A stretch of 32,819 nt of DNA from Rhodospirillales bacterium (GTDB lineage: Bacteria > Pseudomonadota > Alphaproteobacteria > Acetobacterales > Acetobacteraceae): assembly GCA_947447625.1 (NCBI GenBank), contig CANFKS010000048.1, positions 1 to 32,819 of the forward strand, read 5' to 3'. Position numbers and translations under genes: made by a program. Shown piece by piece: positions 2,940-30,523 of this stretch (position 1 is its first letter; every line of letters starts with the position of its first letter). The notes beneath the pieces were generated by a model. It had not been told where the DNA came from. It did not search any database and saw only the letters and a list, made by a program, of their open reading frames with translations.

Positions 2940-2966
2940 CACGGAAATATCCTCGAACAAGAAGGG

Positions 2967-3010
2967 AAGCGCTTCTTTTTTGAAAAAAGAAGCAAAAAAC
3001 TTTTGGCCGT
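2967..3010 (-). repeat. Hairpin repeat, family 1 copy A (terminator-like)
   Basis: GCTTCTTTTTT (2971-2981), one base, then AAAAAAGAAGC form a perfect inverted repeat. It is flanked by AAGCGCTT at one end and by the rc of ACGGCCAAAAGTTTTTTG at the other. In the leftward direction it begins at the TGA stop of the 3011-5428 gene, so it can act as an intrinsic terminator or attenuator between that gene and the CoA-transferase. The same unit recurs at 12526, 16113, 16154, 26145 and 30476. Confidence 0.85.
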
Positions 3011-5441: not shown

Positions 5442-5882
5442 TCACACGAATGACGTTGCGGCCTGCCTGAGCCAGTCGAGCAGCCAGGCCGAAAGCGGCC
5501 GCTCCACAAAAACCCTGATCCCCCCATCCCGCCCGGCAATCAGCATCCGCACCCCGGCAAACAGCGTCTGCGCGCACATCCCGGGCTCCAGCGCCCCCGC
5601 AGGCAGCGTCCCCGCCATGGCCAGGATCTCGCGCCACCGCGCCCCCCCGATATCCAACACCACAAACCCATCCCCCACCTCCGACACCAGCGCCCCCTCC
5701 GGCACCGCCCCGCCCACCACCAGCACCCGCCCCGGCGCCAGCCAATACTGCCCGCCGGCCACCGTATTGGCCGGCATCTCCACCCCTGAGACCAGCCATA
5801 TCCGCCCCGCCTCCACCGGCGTCACCCGCACCCCCGCACCCGCGATCCCCTCCGCCAACCCGGCCGCCGCCATCTCAGCCAT
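5442..5882 (-). CDS. soxG: Sarcosine oxidase gamma subunit
   Basis: A 146-residue protein identified as the gamma subunit of heterotetrameric sarcosine oxidase by its position directly after soxA and by recognisable family features: the central VLDIGGARWREILA segment with its ALEPGMCAQTLFAGV continuation, and the C-terminal SAWLLDWLRQAA. In characterised enzymes gamma packs against the alpha C-terminal folate-binding domain. The start ATG overlaps the last eight bases of soxA, a usual arrangement for coupled subunits. The sequence is divergent and alanine/glycine-rich, as this subunit often is, so the call depends partly on context. M4 is an alternative start. Confidence 0.85.
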   Translation of the reverse strand: MAEMAAAGLAEGIAGAGVRVTPVEAGRIWLVSGVEMPANTVAGGQYWLAPGRVLVVGGAVPEGALVSEVGDGFVVLDIGGARWREILAMAGTLPAGALEPGMCAQTLFAGVRMLIAGRDGGIRVFVERPLSAWLLDWLRQAATSFV

Positions 5883-8766
5883 GCAACCGCTCCCCCGCCC
5901 GATCGAAATGGCACGCCTCGCCGATCACCGCCCGGCTGGTCTTGCCCAAATGGAAAATCTCCATTGTCTCGCCGATCCGCCCCCGCCCGCCCTCGATCAT
6001 CCCAAGCCCGATCGAGCGCCCCAGCGCCGGGCTATGGCATGATGTCGTCACCCACCCCACGCTGCGCCCATCCACCATCGCATGGCTCCCCACTGCCGGC
6101 ACAAACCCCGGATCCTCCGGCAGAACGCCCACGAATTGCCGCCGATCCGCCCTGAGCGCATCCGGCGTCAGCAAGGATCGCTTGCCCACGAAATCCACCG
6201 CCTTGTTGCGCAGCGGTGCCGTAATCCCGAGATCGGCCGGCAGCGTCATGCCATCCGTATCCGTCCCGATCAGGATAAACCCCTTCTCCGCCCGCAGCAC
6301 CGACAGCGCCTCGATGCCATACAGCGTCACATCCTCCCCCAGCCCCAACAGATGCCGCCACATCGCCGCCCCATGCCGCGCCGGCACCGAAATCTCATAG
6401 CCCCGCTCCCCCGTGAAACTCACCCGCGCAATCCGCCCGGGCAGCCCCTCGATCACCCCCTCCGCCACCGCCATATGCGGCAACGCGCCATCCCCGATAT
6501 CGATATCGCTCGACAGCCGCCCCACCAGCACCCCCGCCCGCGGCCCGCTCACCGCAAACGTCGCCCACGCCGCCGTCACATCATGAAACACCACCCGCAT
6601 CGCCGGAAACTCGGTCTGCTGCCACGCACGCAGCATCGCCAGCACCCCCTCGGTATGGCTCGACGACGGCGACAGCAGATACCGCTCCGCCGCCAACCGC
6701 GCCACCACCCCGTCGTCGAACACCACCCCGGTCTCGCGCAGCATCAGGCAATAGCGCAGCCGCCCCACCTTGAGGTTCGCCACCTCGTTGTAGAACATGA
6801 CATTAAGGAACGCCGCCGCATCCGGCCCCGCCACCTCGATCTTGCCCAGGCTCGATCCGTCGAACAGTCCCACCCCCTGGCGCACCGAAGCCGCCTCGCG
6901 CGCGATCGCCGCCGCCACCGTTTCACCGATCCGCAAATAGGCCGCCGGCCGCCGCCAGCCCCCGTATTCGCGCATCACCGCGCCATTGGCCAGATGATCC
7001 GCCGCCGCCGGAACCTCCCGGATCGGCGCGAACAACCGCCCATGCCGCATCCCCGCCAATGCGCCCAACGACACCGGCACATAAGGCGGGCGGAACGTCG
7101 TCGTCCCGACCTCGCCGATCGCCCGCCCCGTCATCGCCGCCAGCGCAGCGATCCCGTTGATATTGCTGGTCTTCCCCTGATCGTTCGCCATCCCCAGCGT
7201 GGTGTAGCGCTTGAGATGTTCGACCGAGGCATAATTCTCGCGCGCCGCCAGCGCCACATCGCCCAGCGTCACGTCATTCTGGAAATCGATCCACTGCCGC
7301 CGATCCGCCACATCGACGAACCACATCGCCCCAATCGGCGCCTCCACCGCCCGCGCCGGGGTCTCCGGCGGCGCCACATGCACCACCCGGCCCAGCGCCG
7401 CCGCCGCCGCCACCCCCGCCGCATGCCCCTGCCCCAACGCCGCCCCAAGCCCCACCGGCCCCGTCACCGCCCCCGCCAAATGCCACCCCTCCCGTGCCAC
7501 GCCCGGCAGGAACGCCGCCGCCGCATCGTCCCAGCGCAATGTTCCGCCGGCCTGGCTGTGCAAATGCACCGACGGCGACCACCCCCCCGAAATCGCCAGC
7601 AAATCGCACCTGACCCGCTCGCGGTTCGACAACGCATCGCGCAACGCCAGGTCCACCCATTTCACCCCATGCCGCCCCCCCGTACCAACCGGCACACACC
7701 CCGCCCGCACCCGCAACCCATCCCGGCCCGGCGCCTCCGGCCGCGCATCCGCCACCGTCACGCTGGCCCCCGCCGCCACCAGCGCCGCGGCCGTCGCATA
7801 GGCAGTGTCATTGTTGGTCGCGATCACCACCTCGCGCCCCGGCAGCACCGCGTAGTGCCGCACATACTGCAACACCGCCGCCGCCGACATGATCCCGGGC
7901 CGGTCATTGCCCGGAAACACCAACGGCCGCTCGATCGCGCCTGCCGCCAGCACCACCTGCCGCGCCCGCACCAGCCACACCCGCTCTTCCGCCCATCCCC
8001 CCGCCGCATCCCGCCGCTGCTCCAGCAGCCCGAATGCATTATGGTCGTAGGCGCCAAACACCGTCGTCCGCCCCAGCAAAGTGGCGCCGCGCATCTCTCC
8101 CACCGCCGCCGCCGCCCACGCCGCCGCCTCCATCCCGTCGATCACCCCGCCCTCGGCCTGCAACACCCCGCCCCACGCCGCCCGGTCATCGGCCAGCATC
8201 ACCCCGAGCCCCGCACTTGCCGCCGCCCGCGCCGCCGCAACCCCCGCGGCACCCCCGCCCACCACCAGCACATCGGTCTCGACATGCCGCGTATCGTACA
8301 GCAGCCGGTCCGGCTCGGGCCGCATGACGCCCAACCCCGCCATCGCCCGGATCCGCGTCTCGAACGCCCCCCAAGACGGCGATTTGAACGTCTTGTAGTA
8401 GAACCCCGCCGGGATGAAGCGATGGAACAGGTCGATCAGCCCCAAAGCATCGCGCCGCACATTCGGCCATGCATTGACCCCGCCGACCACCATCCCCGCC
8501 TCAAGCGGCACCAGGCTCGCCCGCGCGTTCGGATCGTGCCGCGCGCCCAGCGCCACATCGACAATCGCGTTCGGCTCCTCCGTCCACGCGCCATAAACGC
8601 CGCGCGGCCGGTGATACTTGAAGCTGCGCCCGATCACCCCGATGCCATTGGCCAGCAGCGCCGAAGCAATCGTATCCCCCGCGAACCCGCTGAGCTTGCG
8701 CCCCTCCCAGATGAACCCCAGCGGCCGCGTCCGATCGATCGCCCCGCCCGCCGCCAACCGCCTCAC
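5875..8766 (-). CDS. soxA: Sarcosine oxidase alpha subunit
   Basis: The 963-residue alpha subunit of heterotetrameric sarcosine oxidase, which converts sarcosine, oxygen and tetrahydrofolate to glycine, peroxide and 5,10-methylene-THF. In order: an N-terminal ferredoxin-like domain (LGFIWEGRKLSGFAGDTIAS, GRSFKYHRPRGVYGAW, EEPNAIVDV); a signature VNAWPNVRRDAL and IPAGFYYKTFKSP; an NAD-binding Rossmann motif (DVLVVGGGAAGVAAARAA, about residues 165-182); a second pyridine-nucleotide oxidoreductase stretch; and a C-terminal GcvT-type folate domain with FTGERGYEISVPARHG. The start chosen is GTG at 8766, which overlaps the soxD stop (GTGA) and follows GGGGGAGGCGTC. The upstream ATG at 8916 would lie entirely inside soxD. 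The length fits the family (about 965-1000). Confidence 0.95.
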   Translation of the reverse strand: MRRLAAGGAIDRTRPLGFIWEGRKLSGFAGDTIASALLANGIGVIGRSFKYHRPRGVYGAWTEEPNAIVDVALGARHDPNARASLVPLEAGMVVGGVNAWPNVRRDALGLIDLFHRFIPAGFYYKTFKSPSWGAFETRIRAMAGLGVMRPEPDRLLYDTRHVETDVLVVGGGAAGVAAARAAASAGLGVMLADDRAAWGGVLQAEGGVIDGMEAAAWAAAAVGEMRGATLLGRTTVFGAYDHNAFGLLEQRRDAAGGWAEERVWLVRARQVVLAAGAIERPLVFPGNDRPGIMSAAAVLQYVRHYAVLPGREVVIATNNDTAYATAAALVAAGASVTVADARPEAPGRDGLRVRAGCVPVGTGGRHGVKWVDLALRDALSNRERVRCDLLAISGGWSPSVHLHSQAGGTLRWDDAAAAFLPGVAREGWHLAGAVTGPVGLGAALGQGHAAGVAAAAALGRVVHVAPPETPARAVEAPIGAMWFVDVADRRQWIDFQNDVTLGDVALAARENYASVEHLKRYTTLGMANDQGKTSNINGIAALAAMTGRAIGEVGTTTFRPPYVPVSLGALAGMRHGRLFAPIREVPAAADHLANGAVMREYGGWRRPAAYLRIGETVAAAIAREAASVRQGVGLFDGSSLGKIEVAGPDAAAFLNVMFYNEVANLKVGRLRYCLMLRETGVVFDDGVVARLAAERYLLSPSSSHTEGVLAMLRAWQQTEFPAMRVVFHDVTAAWATFAVSGPRAGVLVGRLSSDIDIGDGALPHMAVAEGVIEGLPGRIARVSFTGERGYEISVPARHGAAMWRHLLGLGEDVTLYGIEALSVLRAEKGFILIGTDTDGMTLPADLGITAPLRNKAVDFVGKRSLLTPDALRADRRQFVGVLPEDPGFVPAVGSHAMVDGRSVGWVTTSCHSPALGRSIGLGMIEGGRGRIGETMEIFHLGKTSRAVIGEACHFDRAGERLHG

Positions 8767-12486: not shown

Positions 12487-12525
12487 TTCGAAGTCCGGGT
12501 TTGATATTCCATTGAGAAGACAAGC

Positions 12526-12571
12526 AAGCGCTTCTTTTTTGAAAAAAAGAAGCAAAAAACTTTTATCCGTT
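12526..12571 (-). repeat. Hairpin repeat, family 1 copy B (terminator-like)
   Basis: Same unit as at 2967: AAGCGCTTCTTTTTT, GA, AAAAAAGAAGC, then AAAAAACTTTTATCCGTTA on the + strand. Read leftward, the TAA stop of the aldolase gene is part of the repeat (TAACGGATAAAAG). A stem of about eleven pairs follows, preceded by a T-run. It lies between the aldolase and isochorismatase-type genes and may reduce read-through. Confidence 0.85.
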
Positions 12572-16112: not shown

Positions 16113-16195
16113 AACGGATAAAGTTTTTTTGTTTCTTTTTTTTCAAAAAAAGAAAGCGCTTCTTTTTTGAAAAAAAGAAGCAAAAAACTTTCATC
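16113..16195. repeat. Two opposed copies of hairpin repeat family 1 sharing one core
   Basis: Copy C1 (16113-16161) reads AACGGATAAAG, a T-run, a hairpin and AAGCGCTT in the + direction. Copy C2 (16154-16195) is the same unit in the opposite direction. The two share the self-complementary core AAGCGCTT (16154-16161). The whole makes a compound palindrome-rich element of about 80 bases between hyuB-like and hyuA-like genes. It could cause partial termination or stabilise the upstream mRNA. It also supplies most of the gap before the hyuA-like ribosome site. Confidence 0.85.
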
Positions 16196-18263: not shown

Positions 18264-20474
18264 CTACGAAGCCCCCCGGCTCCGCGGCACCCATTTGCGC
18301 ACCGCATCCCTGATTTCGGTGATCGCGACCGGCTTGGTCAAATAATCGTCCATGCCTGCTGCCAGACACGCTGCGCGGCCCACATCCTGGGCATCGGCCG
18401 AAACCCCAACAATCGGCGTGCGGCGGCCGCGCCCGACCTCAAGCGCCCGGATCTGCCGCGTCGCCTCCCTTCCATCCATCTTGGGCATGTGATTGTCCAT
18501 CAGGATGATATCGTAGCTGCTCGCGTGCCACTGCCGGATTGCCGCCTCGCCATCTTCTGCCACATCGACATCGCATCCGGCCGTGCGCAGCAACGCAAGT
18601 TCGACCATCACGTTGACCTGATTATCCTCCACCAGCAAAGCCCGCACCCGCGCCGCCGGCGGCGCGGCAACCGCAGCTTCTGGCCCCGCCAGCGCCGCAC
18701 GGCGCGCGACACCGCGCAGCACCGTCACGAGTTGATGGACCATCAACGGCGTATCGAGCCAGGCATGAACCGGAATACCCAAATGATGCTGACGGTCCCC
18801 AACCAGCACAAGCGGCGGCATGGAGACGCCCCGGCGTCCGCCAGCCGGTGCCATCTCCGCCGCCTTCACCGCAAGCCCCGTCAAAGTGATGTCGGCGATG
18901 ATCGCGGCAAACGGGCGCTGCGCCGCACTGGCGCGCGCCACCATCCCCATGGCGTCATCCCAGCTTTCGGCAGCCATCGAGTAGATGCCGAGCCCCGACA
19001 GGCTCTCCACCATGCCGCGCTGCTCCACCTGGGCATGGCTCGCGACAAGCACGGACAGCCCGCGCAATGCGGCCCGGTCCTCCTCGCTCACCGCCGGATC
19101 GGCCGGCGCGACGCCGAGCCGCGCCGTAAACCAGAACACCGCGCCCGCCCCCGCGCTGCTCCGCACCCCGATCGCCCCGCCCATCAGATTCACCAGTTGG
19201 CGGGCAATCGCCAGACCCAACCCCGTGCCGCCGAACCGGCGCGTGCTTGACAGGTCTGCCTGCACAAAGGGTTCGAAAATCTGGACCTGCTTCTCCGCTG
19301 GGATCCCGATCCCGGTATCGCGCACTTCGAAGCGGAACAACCCGGGCGTGCCGGGATCGCCGGCGACTGTCACGGTGATCCGCCCGGACGGCGTGAACTT
19401 GATCGCATTGCCGATGATATTGGTCAAAATCTGCCGCAGCCGCACCGGATCGCCCATCAAGGTGCCGGGCAGATCGGGCGCAATCTCGGCCACGAGGTCG
19501 AGCCCTTTGATGCGGCACTGTGCGCCCATCAGATCGACGATATCCTCCACCAGCCGGCGCAGGCCGAACGCCTGGCGATCCAGCTCAAGCCGCCCGGCAT
19601 CGATCTTGGAGAAGTCGAGAATGCCCGCGATCAGATCGAGCAGCATCACGCCGGACTCGCGGGCGACATCGATATAGCGCTGCGCGGTGGCCGGCAGCGT
19701 CTCAAGCGCCACGACATCGAGCATGCCCAGCACGCCGTTCATCGGCGTGCGCAGTTCATGGCTCATATTGGCCAAAAACTGAGACTTCGCCGCATTCGCC
19801 GCCTCGGCCGCCTCCTTGGCGCGCATCAAATCCCGGATCAGCCCGGTACGCACCCAGATCACCACCCACACCAGGGAGGCCGCGGTGCCCATGATGGCAA
19901 AGAGCAGTGCGGTCAGTGTCCAATGCAACAGGTTGAGTTCGCGCTGGTCGGCCGCAACGATGTCTCCGCTGCGCACATTGGAGGCAGCGGCGAGTTCCGC
20001 CATGCGGGGCAACATCGGCTCGACCAGACCGCGCAGCCGGATCGCCGCCTCCGGCCGCGGCAGTTGCGCAATCAACGGGCGCGCCGCAGCCAGCATCGCG
20101 CGCATGCCGAGGACACTGTCCTGCAAATCCCGTCGGGTGGCGATGAACTCGGCCGCCTCTCCGGCCGTCAAGAGGTTGAGCCGGTTCTCCAGCACATCGG
20201 CCCGCAGGTCGACATCATCGCCATCGACCTTGCTGCCCGGCACCGCGGCCGCCGAGATCGCCTCGGCGAAGCGCAGGGTTTCACTCACCGCCTGGCTCAG
20301 CAACCATGTCAGATTATAGCGGGACACCCGCTGCAACGCGGCCTGCCGCTCCACGATCAGGAACGAGGTGACCACCGCCGCAACGGCCAGAAACGCCAGC
20401 ACAAACCCCAACACCCAGCGCAGGGTTCCTCCAGCCCAGACATCCGATGCCGCGGGGCTAGGGGCTGTGGCCAT
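18264..20474 (-). CDS. Hybrid sensor histidine kinase/response regulator with periplasmic domain
   Basis: A 736-residue membrane-bound hybrid kinase. TM1 is about residues 19-41, a helical periplasmic domain about 42-182 ([32 protein letters not shown]), and TM2 about 183-208. A HisKA domain with His239 ([15 protein letters not shown]) and a HATPase domain ([30 protein letters not shown]) follow. Next comes a degenerate receiver-like domain lacking the N-terminal acidic pair ([10 protein letters not shown]). The C-terminal true receiver runs from about residue 609, with Glu-Asp in LLVEDNQ, phospho-acceptor Asp660 ([12 protein letters not shown]) and Lys714 (YLTKP). No HPt or output domain is present, so a separate phosphotransfer partner is implied. 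It starts five bases after the stop of the exported pterin-binding-fold gene, so the two are an operon and probably one signalling unit. Confidence 0.93.
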
Positions 20475-20479
20475 CGCGC

Positions 20480-21022
20480 TTACTTCAGAACCATGCGCGC
20501 GACCTGCCAGGCCGAGCGGCTATAGAAGCGCTGGTGCTTGAGTTCCGGGTCCGAATCATAGGGATAGACGATGAACAACGGCCCCTTGTCCTTCACCGGC
20601 ATATACGCACCGTCCCGCTTGAGGGCGAGCAGCACCTCGTATTTGCGGAAATCCTCCACCGGAATATCGGTGCTGTAGTCATTCAGCGCGCGCGCCGTCA
20701 GCATGGACCCTGTCGCCCCGACCCGGTCCAGCAGCGCCGCCATGCGCACGCCCTCGAATGTCACCGCGCCGGTATACCACGGCGTCGTCGTCGTGAAGGA
20801 TTTCAGGCCCAGCGCCTCAAGCATCGCGATGTCGAATTCTGCGACGCCCTCGCCATTGGTCTCTTTGATGAGGCCCGACAGGGTCAAAATCACCTTGCCC
20901 TGCGGCTTTGCCAGATCAGCCGCCCGCGCCGGCCGCGTGTGCATCAGGCTCGCCATCACCACTCCGGAGGAAACCCCCATCGTGGCGGACAGCACGCCAC
21001 GCCGCGTCACATTTATTGACAT
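20480..21022 (-). CDS. Tat-exported pterin-binding (PruR-like, sulfite-oxidase-fold) protein
   Basis: A 180-residue exported protein. The N-terminus has a twin-arginine signal ([12 protein letters not shown]), a hydrophobic stretch and a likely ARA-A cleavage near residue 35. The mature part matches the molybdopterin oxidoreductase/sulfite-oxidase-like domain: [40 protein letters not shown], then [15 protein letters not shown]. There is no cysteine anywhere, so it cannot carry the Cys-ligated molybdenum of true sulfite oxidases. This agrees with the PruR group, which in Agrobacterium binds tetrahydropterins and controls a membrane partner (knowledge from memory). It has AAAGG seven bases before the ATG. 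The following gene is the sensor kinase; the divergent gene is a pterin synthase homologue. Inference: periplasmic pterin receptor for the kinase. Confidence 0.85.
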
Positions 21023-21307
21023 TTGTCGCCTTTAGTGTTAAGGAGGAATTGTTGTGCTGAGACTTGTTGGTGCGCAATCCTAACGCAGCCTGGATCATTT
21101 ACAACACGCATAATCACGCATACTCGCTGTTGTTTCGAGGGTCAGCATGCACACAGCACCATTCGGCTTGCCGGCACTTCAGTATGGACCCGCAACTGCG
21201 ACCATGACCTCGCAAGTGACCCGCACCGCACCGCAGCCCATGGCGCCGCCGTCTTCGTCTCAGAACCGGCCCGGACCGCGCGCCCCGCACGCATCAGGGT
21301 GCGCGGC
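21023..21307. promoter_or_regulatory. Divergent control region between pterin-binding/kinase operon and PTPS gene
   Basis: These 285 bases separate the two divergent units and are clearly more AT-rich near 21010-21130 than the neighbouring genes. On the + strand, TTTACA (21098-21103) with TACTCG 17 bases on is a weak promoter candidate. A strong AAGGAGG (21040-21046) precedes a nine-codon GTG frame (21054-21083). A 54-codon frame starts at 21147 (listed separately). No convincing repressor palindrome or known riboswitch was recognised. Confidence 0.4.
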
Positions 21308-21311
21308 ATGA
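21147..21311 (+). CDS. Possible small upstream ORF coupled to the PTPS gene
   Basis: ATG at 21147 is preceded by GAGGG at suitable spacing (CGAGGGTCAGC). It opens a 54-codon frame (MHTAPFGLPALQYGPATATM, then a Pro/Ser/Arg-rich tail ending ASGCAA). Its TGA at 21309-21311 overlaps the ATG of the PTPS-family gene as ATGA, the classical coupling arrangement. Composition is low-complexity, with no domain and no signal peptide. It could be a translational regulator or simply a chance frame in GC-rich DNA. Confidence 0.3.
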   Translation: MHTAPFGLPALQYGPATATMTSQVTRTAPQPMAPPSSSQNRPGPRAPHASGCAA

Positions 21312-21766
21312 GCGGCCTCTACCGGTCGACCAAAACCTACGATCACAACGAAGGCCTGTCCTGCTGCTTCCGCCAATGGCGCGCCACCCACTCGCATTGC
21401 CGGCTGCTCCATGGCTATGCGCTGGCCTTCCACTTCGTCTTCGCCACAAGGGAACTCGATGCCAACAATTGGTGCCTCGATTTCGGCGGGCTCAAGCCGG
21501 TGCGGGCCTGGTTGCATGAGATGTTCGACCATACCGTTCTGGTTGCCCAGGATGACCCCGATCTCGACGCGTTCCGTCATATGGCCGAGCGCCAATTGAT
21601 CGACCTGCGCGTGCTCGCCGCCGTCGGCTGCGAGGCGATTGCCCGCCTGGCGCACGACCATGTCGCCGCCTTCGCACGCGAACAGACCGGCGGGCGGGTC
21701 TGGCTCGACAGCGCCGAAGTGCGCGAGCATTCCTCCAACTCCGCGATCTACCAGCCGGATCGCTAG
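21308..21766 (+). CDS. 6-pyruvoyl-tetrahydropterin synthase / QueD-family protein
   Basis: A 152-residue protein of the PTPS/6-carboxytetrahydropterin synthase fold, which acts on 7,8-dihydroneopterin triphosphate. Recognisable parts are FRQWRATHSHCRLLHGYALA (residues 21-40) with the catalytic-type Cys31 and zinc-ligand-type His35, NNWCLDFGGLKPVRAWL, the FDHTVL motif with Asp74-His75, and VREHSSNSAIY with Glu140. The usual LHGH is LHGY here, so the third zinc histidine is replaced by Tyr37. His28 or His30 would be the first ligand. The reaction product may therefore differ from that of classical QueD. The start at 21308 fits the family N-terminus; the open frame extends far upstream without similarity. 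A GTG at 21299 is an alternative. It is divergent from the pterin-binding protein/kinase operon. The stop TAG is the first triplet of a repeat element. Confidence 0.82.
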   Translation: MSGLYRSTKTYDHNEGLSCCFRQWRATHSHCRLLHGYALAFHFVFATRELDANNWCLDFGGLKPVRAWLHEMFDHTVLVAQDDPDLDAFRHMAERQLIDLRVLAAVGCEAIARLAHDHVAAFAREQTGGRVWLDSAEVREHSSNSAIYQPDR

Positions 21767-21864
21767 AGCTGGATGCCTTCTGGTAGGCGACTTCATCCCG
21801 CTCTCACTCTTTGTTTGAGCGCCTGACGGCTTTTGCCGATTCGGCCAAACGCCGTCAGGCTCTA
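21764..21864. repeat. TAGAGC...GCTCTA double-hairpin repeat, family 2 copy 1
   Basis: A 101-base element with terminal TAGAGC and GCTCTA. The first part, GAGCTGGATGCCTTC to GACTTCATCCCGCTC, is an imperfect hairpin. The second, GCCTGACGGC to GCCGTCAGGC, is a perfect ten-pair stem around TTTGCCGATTCGGCCAAA. It fills exactly the gap between two convergent genes, and each terminal TAG is the stop codon of one of them. A second copy is at 28711. It can act as a bidirectional terminator. Confidence 0.85.
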
Positions 21865-22578
21865 GGCAAAGAGGAACGCCACCCTGTCGGTCTCCAGGAT
21901 GGCGCAGGTCAGGCGCCCCCCATAGACGGCACCGGTGTCGATGCCGATGCGGTTGTGTTTGATCACCGGATCCTGCTTGGGCGTATGGCCATGAACCACC
22001 GTCACGCCGAAATCGGCTTCCGAATAGAGGAAGGCTTGGCGGATGCTGATGAGGTCCTGGCGCGTTTGGTCTTCGATGGCGATCCCGGGCCGGATTCCGG
22101 CATGGGCGAAAAGATAGCTTCCTTCGCGGTGGGTCAAAGCAAGGTTTTTCAGGAAGCCCATATGGGCGTCCGGCACATGGCCGGGCCAGGTGGGCCGCGG
22201 CGCATCAGGATCGCCACCCCAGCTTTGCAGCGCCTCGCGCCCACCCTGGATCATCCAATCCGTCATCGAGGCGCCAAGTCCGGAAAGTGCGTCGATCATG
22301 GTCTGCTCGTGATTGCCGAGCAGATTGACGCTCGGCACGCCCGGCAATGGATCGCCGCCAGCAAGCCGCGCCACCACGCCACGGCTGTCCGGCCCGCGAT
22401 CGACGTAGTCGCCGAGGTGCAGCAGCAGCGGAGCGCCGCAGGGCCGATGGGCCAGGTCATCGGCAATCGCCGCATGCAATTCGGCCAGACGGCTGTCGCA
22501 GCCATGGACATCGCCAATGGCATAGATCCGGCGACCGGCGGGAAGGGTCCCGGGTGCCTTCGTGAACTCAAGACTCAT
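21862..22578 (-). CDS. PPP-type metallophosphoesterase (serine/threonine phosphatase-like)
   Basis: A 238-residue cytoplasmic phosphatase with the full PPP-family metal and phosphate motifs: GDVHGC (residues 22-27), GDYVDRGPDSRG (56-67), LLGNHE (86-91), a histidine in YLFAHAGIRPG and VVHGHTPKQDP. Bacterial relatives remove phosphate from Ser/Thr/Tyr or hydrolyse dinucleotide polyphosphates (ApaH/PrpA-like); the target is unknown. The ATG at 22578 has GGGAAG upstream. The frame extends to 22626, but the extra residues are unlike the family. Its TAG stop is provided by the family-2 repeat. It is divergent from the phosphonate monoester hydrolase gene across 65 bases. Confidence 0.92.
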   Translation of the reverse strand: MSLEFTKAPGTLPAGRRIYAIGDVHGCDSRLAELHAAIADDLAHRPCGAPLLLHLGDYVDRGPDSRGVVARLAGGDPLPGVPSVNLLGNHEQTMIDALSGLGASMTDWMIQGGREALQSWGGDPDAPRPTWPGHVPDAHMGFLKNLALTHREGSYLFAHAGIRPGIAIEDQTRQDLISIRQAFLYSEADFGVTVVHGHTPKQDPVIKHNRIGIDTGAVYGGRLTCAILETDRVAFLFA

Positions 22579-26146: not shown

Positions 26147-26192
26147 CGGCCAAAAAGGTTTTTTGCTTCTTTTTTCCTCAAAAAAAGAAGCC
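26145..26192. terminator. Hairpin repeat family 1 copy D: convergent bidirectional terminator
   Basis: AACGGCCAAAAAGG, TTTTTT, then GCTTCTTTTTT-CCTC-AAAAAAAGAAGC (26165-26191). The TAA stop of ald overlaps the repeat start (TAACGGCC), and the convergent TPP-enzyme gene's stop begins right after it. The hairpin with T-runs on both strands fits bidirectional intrinsic termination. The loop (CCTC) differs from the other copies. Confidence 0.85.
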
Positions 26193-30475: not shown

Positions 30476-30523
30476 AACGGGTAAAGTTTTTTTGCTTCTT
30501 TTTTTTCAAAAAAAGAAGCGCTT
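30476..30523 (+). repeat. Hairpin repeat, family 1 copy E
   Basis: AACGGGTAAAG, a T-run, GCTTCTTTTTTTTC and AAAAAAAGAAGCGCTT in the + orientation. It lies between two leftward genes, so its AACGG end points away from the stop of the acyl-CoA dehydrogenase (whose TAA is three bases from the GCGCTT end). This is the opposite polarity to copies A, B, C1 and D. The hairpin can still terminate leftward transcription, because the AAAAAAG side reads as C-T-T-T on the other strand. Confidence 0.85.

Follow-up and report, generated by a model that had tools for sequence, protein, structure and literature searches.

The locus analysed here lies in a 32,819-nucleotide stretch of DNA from a Rhodospirillales bacterium of the family Acetobacteraceae (assembly GCA_947447625.1, contig CANFKS010000048.1, positions 1 to 32,819), referred to below as the window. 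In it, a gene for a predicted periplasmic pterin receptor of the PruR type is followed on the same strand by a gene for a hybrid histidine kinase, and a gene of the PTPS/QueD family is divergent from this pair. The three genes are found at the coordinates assigned to them by a first-pass annotation made from the sequence alone. Computation has established which protein families are present, how the genes are laid out, that motifs are conserved and that pterin enzymes are recurrently linked to pruR, and the gene arrangement at the locus exceeds chance. The features are as follows.

18264..20474, minus strand: hybrid histidine kinase, PruR-DTB type by sequence, 736 amino acids; transmembrane segment, DcpA-type periplasmic domain, transmembrane segment, HisKA, HATPase, receiver
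20475..20479, minus strand: gap of 5 bases from the pruR stop to the kinase start, consistent with a single transcript
20480..21022, minus strand: PruR-type periplasmic protein, predicted to bind pterin, 180 amino acids, cysteine-free; profile and PDB sequence matches
21023..21307, no strand: divergent intergenic region, 285 bp
21308..21766, plus strand: PTPS/QueD-family protein of a rare CxxxHGY type, 152 amino acids; C31, H35, Y37, D74, H75, E140

The product of 20480-21022 matches PDB entries 7kos (4.7e-59) and 7rkb (4.4e-51), both titled 'Pterin Binding Protein', over residues 34-179, and its match to PF00174 (1.3e-07) is far weaker. The entry 7KOS is the structure of PruR of Agrobacterium tumefaciens, in which Tyr104 and Trp160 are named as pterin-binding residues (PMC13259868, cited here and below from its main text). 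Tyr116 and Trp172 of the window protein are separated by the same spacing of 56 residues and are invariant across 15 aligned PruR sequences. The cysteine that ligates the molybdenum cofactor is absent, as the protein contains no cysteine at all, and a twin-arginine start (TRRGVLS) is seen by eye at the N-terminus. The product is a predicted pterin-binding protein of the PruR type, and its earlier description as a cysteine-free protein with the sulfite-oxidase-type fold, putatively exported, is supported by the sequence.

The kinase contains, by Pfam, HisKA (residues 229-294), HATPase (341-453) and C-terminal receiver (613-726) domains, with His239 in the first and Asp660 in the last picked out by motif position, and neither a PAS nor a histidine phosphotransfer (HPt) domain; its best NCBIfam matches, TorS and BarA, are both under their cut-offs, and by sequence the kinase module is TorS/BaeS-like. 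Residues 455-612 have no Pfam match and by eye resemble a degenerate receiver (ADITL at 527). Hydrophobic 19-residue windows with starts at 12-29 and at 185-192 flank a periplasmic part of about 140 residues, the size given in the first-pass annotation. This part carries a WX7E motif (W57, E65) and shares 23-55% identity with 14 partner domains, one of which is from A. tumefaciens UMA610 (locus L059) and in all of which W57 and E65 are invariant; WX7E also occurs inside the first 130 residues of 66 of 79 partner proteins of other genomes, whose genes follow pruR. The sensor domain is predicted to be a helical bundle (mean predicted local distance difference test score, pLDDT, 89), and its model has no structure match in the PDB at E<=0.001, nor any at E below 0.17.

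Pairs of pruR and a kinase with a DcpA-type domain have been published as the class PruR-DTB (PMC13259868). The window pair, with both genes on one strand and 5 bases apart, belongs to this class by sequence, and therefore its kinase half is not new: the earlier proposal that the receptor feeds a phosphorelay is supported by the sequence but does not stand as a novelty. An HPt protein was expected to be encoded elsewhere, and four HPt matches are indeed present at other places in the source genome. Two further pruR-kinase loci bear on the later steps of such relays. At L042 (4588-8609), the gene immediately before the pruR-kinase pair encodes a response regulator whose HD domain (HD_5) is of the HD-GYP kind; the kinase of this pair has its own HPt, and the arrangement suggests that the kinase branch possibly also ends in turnover of cyclic di-GMP (c-di-GMP). 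In Marinobacterium mangrovicola (L126:9385-9723), a free-standing HPt gene (PF01627, 1.4e-17) is divergent from pruR-kinase.

The product of 21308-21766, the start of which is more likely ATG at 21308 than TTG at 21023 as judged from aligned relatives, matches PF01242 with 49.5 bits (cut-off 22.4; 5e-13). In the alignment it retains Cys31, Asp74-His75 and Glu140, which we take to be the catalytic residues of PTPS. At the three histidine positions that presumably bind zinc, H35 is clear, H28 is plausible and the third position is Y37. One of five AlphaFold2 models is confident (mean pLDDT 82.3); in a Foldseek search with it, 33 PDB chains match at E<=0.001, of which 32 are titled PTPS or QueD and the best, 3jyg (4.1e-09), is titled uncharacterized. 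By profile and predicted fold, the protein belongs to the PTPS/QueD family (COG0720), which bears out the earlier assignment of the gene divergent from the pair, 285 bp away. Assignment as QueD proper (PTPS-I) is ruled out by the motif, which reads CRLLHGY in place of the CxxxHGH of QueD, and by a QueD equivalog score of 30.1 bits against a cut-off of 89.25. The source genome has two PF01242 matches, and a CxxxHGH QueD is not among them; the second gene (G000:C28:35788-36168, L001) carries the FGPAQ signature, which denotes PTPS-IV (PMC5445326, main text). In the same source, CxxxHGY is found among PTPS-II-like clusters with FolE in the neighbourhood (AGeNNT); the window protein shares the motif, and its near relatives have FolE adjacent.

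The comparison of neighbourhoods proposed in the first-pass annotation gave a positive result: PTPS, often together with GTP cyclohydrolase, recurs beside pruR. The named loci used for this comparison are the best 80 of at least 588 pruR loci confirmed by profile search and so stand at the top of a longer ranking (unique sequences are put at more than 5500 in PMC13259868); their alpha- or gammaproteobacterial labels are taken from record titles. At 32 of these 80 loci a PTPS gene is encoded no more than 5 kb from pruR, all 32 being among the 59 alphaproteobacterial loci and none among the 21 gammaproteobacterial ones; the shell from 5 to 10 kb, which is shorter at loci near contig ends, yielded no PTPS gene. 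Sorted by hand, the linked loci fall into eight gene orders: PTPS-FolE divergent from pruR (6 loci), FolE-PTPS-pruR (1), PTPS-FolE-pruR (5), PTPS-pruR (3), PTPS divergent (9), PTPS downstream of the effector (5), PTPS-FolE downstream on the other strand (2), and PTPS with another FolE type, divergent (1). Several PTPS lineages are involved, distinguished by eye in the alignment as the CxxxHGY type, a type with HGH and no Cys, and a short HGH type in Belnapia-like genomes. In 68 genomes with 114 PTPS matches, a non-random sample chosen to include all 32 linked ones, PTPS lies within 5 kb of pruR in 42, against 0.23 expected by chance; counting distinct genomes (G017 and G116 are one genome), the figure is 41 of 67. 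Kinship inflates all of these linkage counts, and a stronger case for the linkage is made by the diversity of gene orders. The linkage of a PTPS gene to pruR is real.

Unsupervised clustering of the reading frames within 6 kb of pruR, with pruR itself, its partner and clusters taken as antisense shadows set aside, gave FolE (18 genus groups) and two PTPS clusters (17 and 13 groups) as the top neighbours; as to a linked pterin exporter, it returned just the ABC-ATPase superfamily at scattered distances. In a second collection, of annotated plasmids, 8 regions were viewed from 116 matching records, and PTPS is annotated in two, an FkbM gene in three and neither in three. The proteins encoded with pruR at the 32 linked named loci comprise 29 GGDEF-EAL proteins and 3 kinases. 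Specificity of PTPS for the kinase branch is rejected on this count, and the earlier idea of a dedicated pterin-making gene as part of a kinase module is correct as to the linkage but not as to the partner, for the gene is tied to the receptor.

Within the family, 100 genomes were sampled, with pruR and the PTPS type of the window both counted at E<=1e-8. The receptor gene is found in 19 and the PTPS type in 8, and in 5 of these 8 (the source genome, G064, G088, G089 and G090) pruR is no more than 1.5 kb away from it. Co-occurrence alone, leaving adjacency aside, gives a Fisher p of 0.006. A PTPS of any lineage is adjacent at 10 of 18 family pruR loci, the nineteenth (G072) having been left out. 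The window type is rare; at E<=1e-20 it is present in 2 of 289 genomes of the class, the source genome counted.

GTP cyclohydrolase is encoded beside pruR at 16 of the 80 named loci, 15 of which also have PTPS (15 of the 32 PTPS loci); at two of the 16 (L053 and L129) the matches are weak and of another type. In G064, G088 and G089, GTP cyclohydrolase I (PF01227, 1.1e-40 to 5.1e-42) is located between PTPS and pruR, and at L030, L031, L032, L051 and L052 folE occupies the place of the 285-bp intergenic region of the window, in which no folE remnant is found (the linked FolE type matches at best with E 0.36). The linked type is an extra copy beside canonical FolE in 16 of 17 genomes and the only FolE in G109; canonical FolE scores about 233-256 bits and linked FolE 139-161 bits. 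The single FolE found in the source genome is unlinked, scores 146 bits and is 41% identical to the linked type; it adjoins a short gene that by eye resembles a BLUF photoreceptor (L050, G000:C103). On a plasmid of Paracoccus liaowanqingii (L180:3229-7635), which is one of the three annotated regions with FkbM, folE2, pruR, an EAL gene and fkbM stand in one row on one strand, and the folE2 query has no match in the other loci examined.

A second recurrent neighbour is one lineage of FkbM-type methyltransferase, which neighbour clustering places beside pruR at 16 of the 80 named loci, in Agrobacterium/Rhizobium, Phyllobacterium, Brucella/Ochrobactrum, Falsirhodobacter and Chelativorans. The gene is placed after pruR-dcpA (for example, L059:12579-13274) and once upstream, and PF05050 is matched by all four members scanned (L059, L084, L127 and L128). 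PTPS is present at none of these 16 loci (Fisher p=1.2e-07, uncorrected for kinship); the PTPS locus L051 has an FkbM-family gene of another lineage beside the kinase (5793-6548). A pterin whose production in A. tumefaciens depends on PruA has been proposed to be 2'-O-methylmonapterin (PMC13259868, in the main text of which the term methyltransferase is absent), and the linked FkbM protein is a candidate for the 2'-O-methylation of monapterin in that organism.

The relation of PTPS to PruA was assessed with the A. tumefaciens UMA610 protein that was taken as PruA by its TGX3RXG and YX3K motifs and the best FolM-model score. A PruA-like reductase (E<1e-50, at most 38 candidates scored per genome) is encoded in 57 of the 68 genomes, including 37 of the 42 with linked PTPS, a count by which PTPS as a replacement of PruA is rejected. 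The PruA-like protein of the source genome (G000:C76:8668-9405) is 46% identical to the A. tumefaciens query; against the FolM model (NF005066), 56 short-chain dehydrogenase/reductase matches in this genome include none above the cut-off.

On this evidence, the locus probably combines a pterin receptor, read by a kinase, with part of the supply of the ligand for this receptor; that the PTPS is active, that its product is the PruR ligand and that the kinase is controlled by the receptor are what we infer. Synthesis would start with GTP cyclohydrolase (FolE), encoded elsewhere in this genome, which would turn GTP into 7,8-dihydroneopterin triphosphate. The linked PTPS would convert this compound to a reduced pterin, perhaps finished by the PruA-like reductase. 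The pterin would then reach the periplasm, by a route that is called unknown in PMC13259868, and bind PruR. Pterin-loaded PruR would touch the kinase at its periplasmic domain, which bears the WX7E motif, and alter kinase activity, and phosphate would pass via the receiver of the kinase to an HPt protein and a regulator whose genes lie elsewhere. For PruR-DcpA of A. tumefaciens, both pterin binding and contact between PruR and the periplasmic domain have been shown (PMC13259868).

A broader reading, which is possible but must be regarded as tentative, is that pruR loci are make-and-sense cassettes, many of them with enzymes that would make or tailor a private pterin signal, chemically different from one locus to another. 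In Acetobacteraceae and many Hyphomicrobiales these enzymes would be GTP cyclohydrolase and PTPS; in Agrobacterium, Brucella/Ochrobactrum and Paracoccus the enzyme would be FkbM. The signals would be read by c-di-GMP enzymes or by kinases.

Several observations weigh against a linked pterin supply. PruR systems in general do not need PTPS, as none was found at 27 of the 59 alphaproteobacterial and all 21 gammaproteobacterial loci, some of them on short contigs. Among pruR-kinase loci, L040, L041 and L042 (kinases by Pfam) and L126 are without PTPS, L116 and L117 are probably further loci of this kind (their kinase matches are weak), and none is annotated at the pruR-kinase locus of a Ruegeria plasmid. 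In the family, 3 of the 8 carriers of the window PTPS type (G043, G049 and G080) have no pruR match, and the window is without the adjacent folE of its near relatives. Since most of the genomes encode a PruA-like reductase as well, the role of PTPS is not just to stand in as a source of tetrahydropterin. The other four AlphaFold2 models of the window PTPS have mean pLDDT of only 34.5-49.4. Finally, HGY replaces HGH in this protein and other linked lineages are without the Cys, and the reaction of the linked PTPS may differ from that of QueD or may be lost.

This last point leads to the alternative that fares best, namely that the linked PTPS-fold protein is a degenerate non-synthase that removes, stores or senses pterin and so tunes or ends the signal. 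Such a role would agree with zinc-ligand and Cys positions unlike those of QueD and with the pLDDT below 50 of model residues 24-29; we consider it unlikely, as the window lineage retains Cys31, Asp74-His75 and Glu140 and the joint linkage to GTP cyclohydrolase points to synthesis. Somewhat less likely again is service of the PTPS in another pathway (queuosine, folate or a hydroxylase cofactor), its place beside pruR being due to shared regulation or hitch-hiking. COG0720 proteins do serve several roles (PMC5041015 and PMC5445326, each in part), and the carriers without pruR fit this explanation; the eight gene orders, the several PTPS lineages, the occurrence of FolE, FolE2 and FkbM beside the same receptor and the empty shell at 5-10 kb argue against it. 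It is improbable that the pterins sensed by the PruR-kinase pair here come from PruA or from outside and that the PTPS is a relic: the PruA-like protein of the genome and the lack of a neighbouring folE would be explained, but the frame is intact, with 64-72% identity to 9 relatives, and in G090, too, the genes for PTPS, PruR and the kinase are lined up and folE is missing. An ordinary molybdopterin oxidoreductase adjoining an unrelated kinase, to which the PF00174 match and the naming of relatives in plasmid records as molybdopterin-dependent oxidoreductase might point, is hardly credible in view of the missing cysteine, the match to a solved pterin-binding PruR and the DcpA-type sensor domain of the kinase.

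Apart from the three genes, a dispersed repeat of about 100 bp is located at 21764-21880, directly after the PTPS stop; it has at least 47 matches in the source genome including itself (40 of 245 candidates scored), and some copies are in tandem. AT-rich repeats also interrupt the otherwise GC-rich window at 2957-3007, 12517-12567 and 16145-16195, and in a second group at 16113-16154, 26148-26189 and 30476-30517.

A periplasmic ligand-binding protein informs a hybrid kinase in TorT-TorS and LuxP-LuxQ. The window pair resembles these systems in working principle but differs from them in receptor fold and ligand. Much closer is PruR-DTB of Ruegeria pomeroyi DSS-3, which shares the two-gene layout, the periplasmic PruR, the WX7E-bearing DcpA-type domain and a TorS-like kinase with a receiver (PMC13259868), whereas the window kinase has no PAS domain by Pfam and the window pair has a divergent PTPS-family gene. 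The receptor and periplasmic domain families are also shared with PruA-PruR-DcpA of A. tumefaciens, and a PruA-like protein is encoded in the source genome, but the output in the window is a kinase and not a GGDEF-EAL protein, and the neighbour of pruR is PTPS, in place of the FkbM methyltransferase found at the Agrobacterium loci in the set.

QueD, PTPS and 6-pyruvoyl have no matches in the main text of PMC13259868, and PF00174, molybdenum and GGDEF are absent from that of PMC5445326, supplements being outside this scope. No report of linkage of pruR to PTPS or FkbM was found in the literature searched, a scope outside which the primary PruR papers, supplements and other papers that name PruR or DcpA a few times (such as PMC10530663, PMC4646962 and PMC9933640) lie, and within it the recurrence of pterin-synthesis and methyltransferase genes beside pruR is unreported.

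The in vivo ligand of PruR is called unclear in a 2026 review (PMC13259868), and the linkage makes this question directly testable. Should pterin enzymes travel together with the receptor, its gene neighbours would indicate which ligand chemistry to seek: products of the PTPS type (pyruvoyl, carboxy or biopterin-like tetrahydropterins) would be candidate ligands in one set, and O-methylated monapterin in another, where the FkbM gene would make the 2'-O-methylmonapterin proposed for A. tumefaciens. Such a supply would fit the observation that PruA has its highest efficiency on dihydrobiopterin, even though A. tumefaciens is without biopterin-synthesis genes (PMC13259868). The presence of pterin genes beside the receptor in related bacteria suggests that the cells make the signal that they sense; if this is true, pterins would be dedicated signals and not leaked cofactors.

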